A DNA stretch of 64,000 nt, from the NCBI GenBank assembly GCA_029261355.1, contig JAJDBM010000049.1:62001-126000 (forward strand), written 5' to 3'. This DNA is from Nitrospirales bacterium. GTDB taxonomy: Bacteria; Nitrospirota; Nitrospiria; Nitrospirales; UBA8639. The notes under the pieces are model-generated. The model did not search any database. It had not been told where the DNA came from and was given only the letters and a program-made list of their open reading frames with translations. Made by a program: the position numbers and the translations under genes. The number at the start of each line of letters is the position of its first letter. Position 1 is the first letter of the stretch. Positions 13,557 through 17,234 of this stretch are shown here, in pieces.

Positions 13557-14009
13557 TCAAAAGGTCTTCTTGGCCCCATTTGGCTTCATTTCGATCGTCC
13601 CATTTAACACCACGCCATTTTCCATCGACAATTGCGGCGTGTTGAGTGACCCTTCCATGACGGCAGTCGCTAAAAGCTGCACCTTTTCTTTCGCTATGAT
13701 ATCTCCCTTTATTTCTCCACGGCTAATCACGGAACCCGCACTTATTTTGGCTGTTATAACGGCTTGTTCTCCAACTAATAGGGTTCCTTCTGTATGTAAT
13801 TCGCCGTCAAGGCGTCCATCAATTTGGACACTTCCTTGGTAACTGATGACTCCCTTAAATTCGACGCCAGGACCAATAAAGGCCACCACGTCACTTTTGA
13901 CACCTGATGACGATGACCCATTTTTATAGGAAGAACTTCCACCATTTGTCGATGCCCCTACTGCTTGACCATTTGTTGTTTGCTGTTCATCTAATTCAAT
14001 TGCCATCAC
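13557..14009 (-). CDS. Bactofilin (polymer-forming cytoskeletal protein)
   Basis: Member of the DUF583/bactofilin family, which forms non-nucleotide filaments that help place cell-wall enzymes. A Gly/Ser-rich flexible N-terminus (about 45 residues) precedes a beta-helical core with repeated hydrophobic/Gly turns: AFIGPGVEFKGVISYQGSVQ, IDGRLDGELHTEGTLLVGE, SAGSVISRGEIKGDII. Two adjacent ATGs begin it (14009, 14006). A good purine-rich ribosome-binding site (AAGGAGGAGGAG) lies just upstream. A paralogue is encoded upstream in the same direction, and the two likely work together. Confidence 0.93.
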   Translation of the reverse strand: MMAIELDEQQTTNGQAVGASTNGGSSSYKNGSSSSGVKSDVVAFIGPGVEFKGVISYQGSVQIDGRLDGELHTEGTLLVGEQAVITAKISAGSVISRGEIKGDIIAKEKVQLLATAVMEGSLNTPQLSMENGVVLNGTIEMKPNGAKKTF

Positions 14010-14148
14010 TCCTCCTCCTTCTTATTATAGAAACTTCGTGTTTGTTAAACAGATGACCTATTGTTCTCCAACTGTTGTCGGAGGTTGGTGGAAATTTCTT
14101 GAGCCAGGACTTCTCAAAGACCATATGGAGATATAGCTGAGACAGCGT

Positions 14149-14709
14149 CTAACGGATCTCTGGCTCAAGAACTTCTGAAGGCCACCATGGCGGATGGGTA
14201 ATACGACTCCGTTGAAAATGTTCCTGCCACATGTTCCCCGGAATCCGTCCCCCGTTGATCCATATCGACCAATCGGTCTCTAAGACCGCTCCTTCCTCCA
14301 TAGAAAGATAGGGAGTTTTTATGGATCCCTTCATCACAGCGGACGACTTCAAATGAATATTTTTCTTTGCAGAAACATTGCCTGTAATCTGCCCATCACT
14401 AATAATGGATTCTGCGTGAATATTGGCATCCACCATGCCTTCCGAGCCTACAACGACGGATGAATTGGAATGAATTTCTCCCTCAAGACTTCCATCTATC
14501 TGCATTTTTCCATCACCCACCATGACCCCTTTACATTCAACGCCTGGTCCAATAAATGCCGTTGGTTCTTCAGTCTCCAAAGCTTCAAGGCCTGATTCAA
14601 CTTTCAATAATGACGATGGAGTTTTGGCGATTCTAGATATTCGGCGAATAGGATACATACTCCCCTTCAACCGAGAAGGCTTCCCATGTAAGATGGCAAT
14701 TTGCTTCAT
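14149..14709 (-). CDS. Second bactofilin, with a Trp-rich tail
   Basis: Paralogue of the neighbouring bactofilin, 186 residues. The core repeats the same pattern (AFIGPGVECKGVMVGDGKMQ, IDGSLEGEIHSNSSVVVGS). It differs from the neighbour at both ends: a basic N-terminus (SMYPIRRISRIAKT) and a C-terminal extension of about 35 residues with several Trp and Pro (THPPWWPSEV). The tail could be a partner- or membrane-binding segment; that is inference. It lies 139 bases upstream of the other bactofilin gene, probably in the same transcript. Confidence 0.9.
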   Translation of the reverse strand: MKQIAILHGKPSRLKGSMYPIRRISRIAKTPSSLLKVESGLEALETEEPTAFIGPGVECKGVMVGDGKMQIDGSLEGEIHSNSSVVVGSEGMVDANIHAESIISDGQITGNVSAKKNIHLKSSAVMKGSIKTPYLSMEEGAVLETDWSIWINGGRIPGNMWQEHFQRSRITHPPWWPSEVLEPEIR

Positions 14710-14803: not shown

Positions 14804-14959
14804 AAAATCCTAACGGTTACTTGATGAATCTTGAAAAGGGACAATTTAATCATAGGTTTGAGTCCAGTCACGACCAAAAGCCCAGGGTCCAGGCCGCCAA
14901 GACATGACTTCATCTCTCATTCATGATAGTTGCGAGCCTTTCTGATCTTCATGTAACCT

Positions 14960-15715
14960 TTGTGCGTCACAAATAGTAGGTCCTCACACGTCAAACACAA
15001 TACGGATGCCCTTGTGAATATAGTTCAACCTCTTACCCTTGACTCGTTGCTGAGTGAGCTTGCCGCTCATCCAGTCAATACCAATAGATTTTTTGTCGAC
15101 TTCCAAGACCACCATCTCACGCCGGCACAACTCCATACGTTCATCAGGCAATATCATTTTTTTTGTCACCATTTCACCAAAGAACTAGAGGGCTTGCTTT
15201 ACCACACTCCGATCAAAGAACTGGAGATGCGTGTTGAATTGACCAAAACCCTCTATTCTGAGTTAGGAAGTGGCTCATCCAATGATGCACATATTCGAGA
15301 TCTCGAGCTCTTTGCTCAGGTTGCAGGGCTCGACCAAGATGACCTCAACATGACGCATCCGATTGCCGAGGTCCAAGAATATCTTGATACCTTGCATCAC
15401 TTTTTTGTCGAATCTGGATATCTGCAAGCCTTGGGAGCTGAACTTGCGGTCGAAACCACCGCAGCTTCAGAGTTTCGTTTTTTTGTTCCTGGGTTACAAA
15501 AGTACTCGCAGTTCACGACGCAAGACCTAAGGTTCTTTACGATGCATCTTGCCGAGGAAGTCAGACACCGTGATTGGCTCACCCTGGCCGTTCACCATAC
15601 CGTCAAGTCAACACACGATTTAGAACTAGTTGCTCTTGGAGCTCGAACGACAGCTGATGCCTGGCATGCTTTCTGGGATGGCATGCATCGAGCCGTCTTT
15701 GATTCATGTAATTAA
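14960..15715 (+). CDS. Heme-oxygenase-fold (PqqC/TenA/CADD-like) iron-dependent protein
   Basis: An all-helical protein of about 233-251 residues that reads like the iron-containing redox enzyme branch of the PqqC/TenA superfamily. Candidate metal ligands are visible: HHFTKELEGLLYH in an early helix, ELAVETTAASEFRFF in the middle, and HLAEEVRHRDWL near residue 205, the last being a typical ExxxH pair. Family members include diiron oxygenases and decarboxylases; the substrate here is unknown. The start is unclear: TTG at 14960, or GTG at 15014 just before the conserved part, neither with a good ribosome-binding site. Seventeen bases after its stop comes the PqqD-like methyltransferase, so the two probably share a pathway. 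Confidence 0.72.
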   Translation: MCVTNSRSSHVKHNTDALVNIVQPLTLDSLLSELAAHPVNTNRFFVDFQDHHLTPAQLHTFIRQYHFFCHHFTKELEGLLYHTPIKELEMRVELTKTLYSELGSGSSNDAHIRDLELFAQVAGLDQDDLNMTHPIAEVQEYLDTLHHFFVESGYLQALGAELAVETTAASEFRFFVPGLQKYSQFTTQDLRFFTMHLAEEVRHRDWLTLAVHHTVKSTHDLELVALGARTTADAWHAFWDGMHRAVFDSCN

Positions 15716-15731
15716 ATTAAGGAAATTTCTC

Positions 15732-17234
15732 GTGCAAGACACTGCTATTTCAACAAATATTCAACAGCCAGATGAGCCACTCACACTCGAAGGTGACATC
15801 CTCAGCCAACGCGCCTGGCGCATGCCTGATCTGATTATCTATCAGCATGGTCCAGAGGAATGGTGGGTCAGCCCACTCGATGAAGAACTGCCTCTGATCA
15901 AACTGAACCGCATGGGAGCCTCGCTATTAGGAGCGATGGATGGCCATTCCACTTTAGCCGCGTTAGTCAGTCGATTCGGGAAATGGGTCTGTGGCCCGAA
16001 CCAGGAAACCGGTCAATGGTTCCTGGAACGATGGTCACAACCTCGATATTCACTCTGTTTTTATGGATCGGAAGCTCCAAGTGGACATAACACCGAGGCC
16101 AAATGGGATCTATTATTACAACGGGTACGCGAAGGATGGCATGGCAATGTCACTGAGGAAACTGAAGGGCATCTTTCATCGTTTCATATGCAAGGTATTC
16201 AAACCCAACATGGTCACTTTGAAATTATTGAGACCACCGTTTCACATCTATTTCGTGAGCCATGTGAAGCCTTGCATGGCCTGACTTATGGCCGACTGCT
16301 TGGTCAAACCCTGAGAAAAATGGGGTGGTTTAGCCCACGACCAACACGTATTGTCGAGGTAGGTGCAGGGTTAGGCTATGTCTCTAAAGAATTAGCGAGT
16401 GAATTGAGCACTGAGGAACGACGAGACATCCACTATACATTCCTGGATTTAACCCGTCCGTTTTTAGGATCGCAAACAAATTTAGCACGATCTGCCGGAT
16501 GGCAAGCTTCGGCAACCCAAGCCAATGCTGAACAGCTCCCACTTACTGATAACAGCGTGGATCTCATCATTGACAATGAAAATTTAGCAGATATGACTCC
16601 GGTACAATTGACGGCCAAAGAGCTAGAGTCCCATGAGGGCACGACGCCTCAACATCAAGCGGCCTTAGACCTTATTCGACAATTGCACCTTCCCCTGGAT
16701 AAACCCTTCCCTGATGAAGTTATCTTTAATTATGGAGCGCTGTCGTTCCTGATGGAAGCCTGGCGCGTCCTCAAACCTGGCGGCCATGCCATCATGATAG
16801 AATTTGGTATTGAGATAGGCTATCCAGAACCCGTGAAATTACCGGGCCATACTGAATATGAAGTCCAATACTCACACATGCGCCATGCCGCACGAGGGCT
16901 TGGGTTCCGTGAACAATATTGCACATTACCACAGCTCTTGAATATTTCTGGAGAGACTCAGGTTCTATGCACTGGAGCCGCCTATTCTATCCGTCGAATT
17001 TGCGAAGCCCTCAAGCAACCCTTTTCTGTCCGTGCCTACACAGAAGCGGAACTGGGAAAGTCTCTTGGCGACACCCTTCAAAATTTAACTGGACTGCACT
17101 ACCATAGCGTACTCGATCCAGCATGGTTTGGCCTCTGGGACTTTAAAGTGCTGATGCTGGAAAAACCCGGGGCTAAAATTCACCGCCCAACGTATCAAGA
17201 ATCCAAAGGCTTCCGCTGGTATAGCCAACGATAG
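15732..17234 (+). CDS. Fusion of a PqqD-like N-terminal region and a class I SAM-dependent methyltransferase
   Basis: About 500 residues. Near residues 55-85 the pattern PLIKLNRMGASLLGAMDGHS resembles PqqD proteins (hydrophobic-Asn-x-x-Gly then a helix, Gly and Thr), which bind peptides in RiPP pathways. The central part is a Rossmann methyltransferase: motif I RIVEVGAGLGYVSKEL, an acidic loop DNSVDLIIDNENLADM, and a late motif EAWRVLKPGGHAIMIEFG. The C-terminal 130 residues are not assigned. I set the start at the GTG at 15732 behind AAGGA; the frame extends upstream to 15630 inside the previous gene. Substrate unknown; the partner is the PqqC-like protein just upstream. Confidence 0.72.
   Translation: MQDTAISTNIQQPDEPLTLEGDILSQRAWRMPDLIIYQHGPEEWWVSPLDEELPLIKLNRMGASLLGAMDGHSTLAALVSRFGKWVCGPNQETGQWFLERWSQPRYSLCFYGSEAPSGHNTEAKWDLLLQRVREGWHGNVTEETEGHLSSFHMQGIQTQHGHFEIIETTVSHLFREPCEALHGLTYGRLLGQTLRKMGWFSPRPTRIVEVGAGLGYVSKELASELSTEERRDIHYTFLDLTRPFLGSQTNLARSAGWQASATQANAEQLPLTDNSVDLIIDNENLADMTPVQLTAKELESHEGTTPQHQAALDLIRQLHLPLDKPFPDEVIFNYGALSFLMEAWRVLKPGGHAIMIEFGIEIGYPEPVKLPGHTEYEVQYSHMRHAARGLGFREQYCTLPQLLNISGETQVLCTGAAYSIRRICEALKQPFSVRAYTEAELGKSLGDTLQNLTGLHYHSVLDPAWFGLWDFKVLMLEKPGAKIHRPTYQESKGFRWYSQR

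Follow-up and report, generated by a model that had tools for sequence, protein, structure and literature searches.

A heme-oxygenase-like dimetal oxidase gene beside a PqqD-like methyltransferase gene: a candidate two-gene tailoring module of Nitrospirales

We describe a gene pair of the order Nitrospirales that encodes a heme-oxygenase-like dimetal oxidase (HDO) and, after a gap of 16 bases from its stop codon (15716-15731), a methyltransferase with a PqqD-like N-terminal part (MT). We propose that the two form a tailoring module, old in Nitrospirales, that would oxidize and methylate one substrate, a reading that we rate as evenly balanced. The HDO would use its dimetal site and O2 to oxidize the substrate, MT would use S-adenosylmethionine to methylate the same molecule or the product of the HDO, and the PqqD-like part may dock the substrate, a carrier or the HDO. 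The pair lies in a window of 64 kb, the whole stretch of DNA analysed, from a genome of 4.63 Mb assembled in 74 contigs (Table 1).

Table 1 Features of the gene pair and its surroundings in the window
Feature	Position	Strand	Description and basis
Block upstream of HDO, possible promoter	14930..14960	+	TTGCGAGC...ATGTA; shared by the window and three relatives of the same genus (alignment)
HDO gene (gene 1)	15014..15715	+	Heme-oxygenase-like dimetal oxidase; Pfam, AlphaFold2 model, PDB matches, invariant ligands; start from relatives
MT gene (gene 2)	15732..17234	+	500 aa; PqqD-like N-terminal part, class I methyltransferase and conserved C-terminal region; Pfam, model, order-wide conservation
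PqqD-like segment, MT residues 30-85	15819..15986	+	Signature LN..G..LL.AMDG..T...L...FG; NCBIfam, hhalign, low-confidence model
Class I SAM-dependent methyltransferase core, MT residues 185-360	16284..16811	+	VEVGAGLGYVS; Pfam, model, Foldseek
3' end of MT gene, single copy in window	17131..17234	+	Counterpart of a stretch duplicated in ten other Nitrospirales loci

Both open reading frames, their spacing and the motifs HLAEEVRHRDW and IKLNRMGASLLGAMDG, all reported by the first-pass annotation, are present in the window. The annotation had started gene 1 at 14960. In the relatives L085 and L086 the reading frame is interrupted by stop codons immediately before the counterpart of GTG 15014, so we moved the start to this codon, which gives a protein of 233 aa; TTG 14960 is, from this comparison, an unlikely start and GTG 15014 the likely one. 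MT also starts with GTG (15732). The conserved block upstream of HDO was not picked up by a sigma-70 scan. Two tandem bactofilin-like genes (identified by eye) lie upstream of the pair on the minus strand (13557-14709).

By sequence and model, the gene 1 product is an HDO nearest in fold to CADD and BesC, rather than to PqqC, to which it had been likened. It matched Pfam Haem_oxygenas_2 above the cut-off (E 1.3e-17) and TENA/THI-4/PQQC below it, and its best PDB sequence matches were BesC (E 1.2e-8) and CADD (3.6e-5). The AlphaFold2 model (pLDDT 85.2) has a heme-oxygenase-like helical fold, for which Foldseek gave its top matches to CADD (1rcw; TM by target length 0.87) and BesC (0.83), with PqqC lower (0.75). 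The metal ligands E83, H93, E147, H178, E182 and H185 (3H/3C) are invariant in all 24 paired HDOs aligned, and the predicted dimetal site would activate O2; on family, model and ligands, the earlier view of a heme-oxygenase-fold metal enzyme stood. According to the available part of a review (PMC13108848), this 3H/3C set is that of most HDOs. As described in the available text of PMC11965152, CADD-type HDOs work on amino acids or amino-acid residues. BesC can be counted with them by its name, 4-chloro-allylglycine synthase. We regard a small molecule or amino acid as a somewhat favoured substrate for the pair, and a peptide or protein as a tentative choice.

Inspection of the neighbourhoods of other HDOs in six genomes (G152, G178, G096, G145, G204 and G166) yielded no lead; the entry for the 54% HDO at L195 was left out, its ORF having been taken from the wrong strand. 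A plasmid search returned no match to MT and five to HDO (24-26%), with unrelated biosynthesis genes as the contexts in Pantoea and Scytonema. Distant HDOs (~28%) at three other Nitrospirales loci (L197, L198 and L199) have neighbours that resemble, by eye, relatives of 4-hydroxyphenylpyruvate dioxygenase, homogentisate dioxygenase and fumarylacetoacetase. Where CADD has its substrate tyrosine, these HDOs also carry a Tyr, but by eye they lack the Lys.

That gene 2 continues as a methyltransferase was borne out: several class I methyltransferase Pfam families scored above cut-off, methyltransferase families matched all 30 homologues, and the Rossmann core carries the SAM motif VEVGAGLGY. Foldseek of the MT model returned generic methyltransferases only, and PADLOC reported mad2 alone, over the methyltransferase core. 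The N-terminal part is probably PqqD-like and not PqqD proper, judging from profiles. It scored 14.0 bits against PqqD (PF05402; gathering cut-off 23.4), 4 of the 30 homologues matched PqqD with E values no higher than 1, the lowest being 0.0084, and the NCBIfam models that ranked highest, two for PqqD and one for RiPP binding (ApyI), all scored below threshold. With hhalign we compared an alignment of 29 Nitrospirota PqqD segments (those of 39 matches that were given loci, minus L192, which was under the cut-off) with pieces of the MT alignment. The three windows covering the segment reached 73-79% probability (P 1.7e-5 to 3.2e-5), and six windows elsewhere in MT 0.2-3.5% (P 0.012 to 0.29); the match is only ~30 residues long and concentrated at residues ~55-85. 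The PqqD-like start proposed earlier was specific in the profile comparison but fell short of the Pfam cut-off. In the AlphaFold2 model the core has high confidence and the N-terminal part a pLDDT of about 30-65, with a predicted strand-strand-strand-helix-helix order at low pLDDT (E34-40, E43-48, E56-58, H60-68, H75-85 and H95-100). Residues 82, 92, 93, 191, 200 and 485 best separate HDO-bearing from HDO-free lineages, in columns uncorrected for relatedness; the first three sit where the PqqD-like part ends and give a weak hint of a contact there.

MT was detected in 46 of 48 genomes of the window's family, including all 33 of good quality. A sample of 197 genomes of the phylum gave 68 matches, from 64 of 65 Nitrospirales (the members among the genomes listed in order of kinship, all order members being taken as listed) and 4 of 132 others. 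The latter four were short and covered the methyltransferase core only (E 1e-5 to 2e-4), and no MT orthologue was found among these 132 genomes. The sole order member without MT (G065) is a 230-contig assembly. Given this near order-wide conservation, at 56% identity or more through nearly the whole order of Nitrospira nitrite oxidizers, and the absence of orthologues from the other sampled genomes of the phylum, MT is likely important to these hard-to-grow bacteria. HDO matches occurred in 39 of the 197 genomes; identity exceeded 50% only in 10 of 12 family genomes and in G152, and the rest, including the other two matches of G152, were at most 37% identical. The G152 copy, the closest non-adjacent HDO (54%), sits away from MT.

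Two conserved peptides served as queries against contigs of relatives, and the best 80 of 183 relatives were taken; divergent fusions in other phyla could therefore have escaped notice. Nitrospira moscoviensis and Candidatus Nitrospira defluvii are among the named species. In 23 of these 80 species loci HDO immediately precedes MT on the same strand, at an estimated gap of -50 to +125 bases, and 52 loci with at least 900 bases upstream lack it; five are uninformative. The claim that the pair is conserved together therefore held in part: adjacency exceeds chance and MT is near order-wide, but HDO is adjacent in only 23 of the 75 informative species (about a third) among the best 80 of 183 relatives.

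The adjacency looks ancient. On the MT tree (85 rows; L133 was dropped as partial), HDO is present in both main clades and both families, with four of the 23 paired loci (L125, L131, L137 and L139) in the clade of the other family. Its presence requires six changes, compared with a mean of 20.9 when shuffled (0 of 500 shuffles as low). Pairwise identities of HDO and MT are correlated (r = 0.90, p = 0.0001, n = 24), and the upstream position is kept even where HDO identity drops to ~55%. Because adjacency occurs in both families and HDO distances track those of MT, the pair looks ancestral to the order, with HDO putatively lost repeatedly, while the tree alone is compatible with repeated gain. 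Two loci labelled Opitutia (L126) and Nitrospinota (L096) fall inside the clade of the window's family and are probably misbinned.

We profiled ~8 genes on each side of the pair in 21 loci. Only two neighbours were frequent, both named by eye: Ppx, which lies beyond MT, in 16 of the 21 loci, and a RecG-like gene in 11; no other operon partner was conserved. No third enzyme, radical-SAM protein, protease, transporter or precursor was conserved with the pair within this range (1.2 kb for small ORFs), so the search proposed earlier for a conserved precursor peptide and a radical-SAM partner found neither. A local RiPP precursor was rejected as a candidate: no short ORF within 1.2 kb was conserved across clades save frames over flanking genes, and every cluster that emerged either ran opposite Ppx or was confined to near-identical species. 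Genuine PqqD genes (58-69 bits) occur ~13-29 kb downstream of MT at four Nitrospira loci (L204, L205, L207 and L209, in G096, G125, G136 and G121, respectively).

The end of the MT gene looks, from sequence comparison, like an insertion hotspot for toxin-antitoxin or defence-like cassettes. Ten loci (L072, L073, L074, L075, L095, L098, L150, L155, L158 and L208), from both families, carry direct repeats of at least the last 101 bases of MT downstream on the same strand, 82-95% identical; the repeats end with the stop codon or a few bases away from it (51 bases past it in one case). They derive from a survey of 101 loci, some genomes being counted twice from two sources, in which 11 were flagged; L126 (repeat inside the gene) and L162 (the contig of L073) were dropped and L208 was added. 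Two further copies, in L150 and L208, take in no more of MT than its last 47-50 bases, plus sequence beyond (~80-82%). Cargo between repeats includes BrnT with an RHH partner, HepT with a polymerase-beta nucleotidyltransferase, Gp49-like with HTH_37, PIN, RelB-like, nucleotidyltransferases, and SNF2-DUF3670 with SWIM (L075 assigned by similarity); the HepT pair of L208 lies just beyond its long copy. Across the 101 loci, the MT-Ppx spacing was below 200 bases in 33, larger in 32 and unmeasurable in 36, and the window is an empty site with a spacing of 47 bases. One occupied interval, in G136, holds a 719-aa SpecificRecomb protein (L072:10441-12600; PF10136, E 3e-174) directly after MT. Among 14 genomes searched for tyrosine recombinases, within the limits set by contig breaks, only G152 had one in the MT-Ppx interval (by coordinates), and it is partial.

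Two readings drawn from relatives of the HDO can be largely set aside. One holds that it is a self-sacrificing p-aminobenzoate synthase, which would agree with CADD being among its best sequence and fold matches. CADD and NePabS, as reported in the available text of PMC11965152, excise their own tyrosine and draw the amine from a lysine; here the sacrificial Tyr position is Phe in all 22 paired HDOs with a residue there, the amine-donor Lys is replaced by Phe in 21 of the 24 and by Leu in the other 3, and the CADD model (TIGR04305) scored 47.2 bits against a cut-off of 200. The genome also has two chorismate-binding genes: one belongs to a trp-like cluster, and the other, close to an aminotransferase-IV gene, is PabB-like as named by eye and from context. 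With the two residues replaced and a PabB-like gene at hand, the HDO would have a substrate other than the CADD type, and the p-aminobenzoate reading is close to refuted. The other reading, a part in PQQ biosynthesis, was suggested by the fold shared with PqqC and by the resemblance of the N-terminal MT segment to PqqD. The absence of a PqqA- or PqqE-like gene nearby was already noted in the first-pass annotation and was confirmed, but the PQQ link it drew found no support at the genome level: profile searches of the genome found no PqqD, no PqqA (a weak search, the control being positive in 1 of 14 genomes) and four PqqE matches, none above cut-off. Genome content contradicts this role, to which we give almost no credence.

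Methyltransferase and HDO may be unrelated neighbours, MT being a standalone order-specific enzyme and HDO a separate oxidase on a shared transcript; MT stands without HDO in 52 of the 75 informative species among the best 80 of 183 relatives and the other neighbours vary, but the directly upstream position has been kept in both families through the divergence of HDO, and we find this explanation rather unlikely. Most species retain MT alone, so the two need not share a substrate, and their co-inheritance could come from an operon neighbourhood. It is also possible, though doubtful, that the PqqD-like part represents a genuine RiPP-recognition-type domain and that MT, with HDO where present, acts on a peptide or housekeeping protein encoded elsewhere. 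The PqqD signature in the profile comparison, the ApyI model among the weak NCBIfam matches and the mention of HDOs in ribosomal peptide modification in the available part of PMC13108848 point this way, whereas the short-ORF search, the lack of a conserved radical-SAM, protease or transporter gene nearby and the low model confidence speak against it. The boldest version, an order-specific core methyltransferase with an RRE-type dock and an ancestral dimetal oxidase modifying a conserved Nitrospirales protein or peptide encoded elsewhere, seems to us quite improbable; if true, it would be RRE-guided oxidation and methylation outside any RiPP gene cluster, in nearly all members of the order. Under the tailoring module that we propose, the central reaction would be methylation, with oxidation as an accessory step, because MT stays where HDO has been lost. 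The pair is a tractable two-gene unit for expression and testing.

Among known systems, CADD (CT610) and NePabS share the HDO fold and the 3H/3C ligands and differ in the sacrificial residues, in the family score and in the p-aminobenzoate supply, for which a chorismate-route gene is present here; the reaction of this HDO subfamily, which lacks the product-defining residues of CADD, is thus not fixed by that precedent. BesC is the best PDB sequence match and similar in fold, but HDO scored 43.7 bits where the BesC equivalog model (NF042919) requires 500. To our knowledge, nothing in the neighbourhood of the pair resembles the Bes cluster. UbiE-type and MpqE quinone methyltransferases share the class I core with MT; a quinone methyltransferase identity was rejected, as MT scored 17.7 bits against the MpqE model (NF052510, cut-off 335) and the methyl-plastoquinone methyltransferase MpqE is a separate gene elsewhere in the genome (404 bits). 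Compared with RiPP recognition elements (RREs), the pair has no precursor or RiPP enzymes near it and the structure of the MT segment is not confident. PqqC and PqqD are matched by the HDO fold and by the signature at MT residues 55-85, respectively; they differ in that no PQQ pathway was found in this genome, the PqqD score is below cut-off, and the PqqD-like part is here fused to a methyltransferase.
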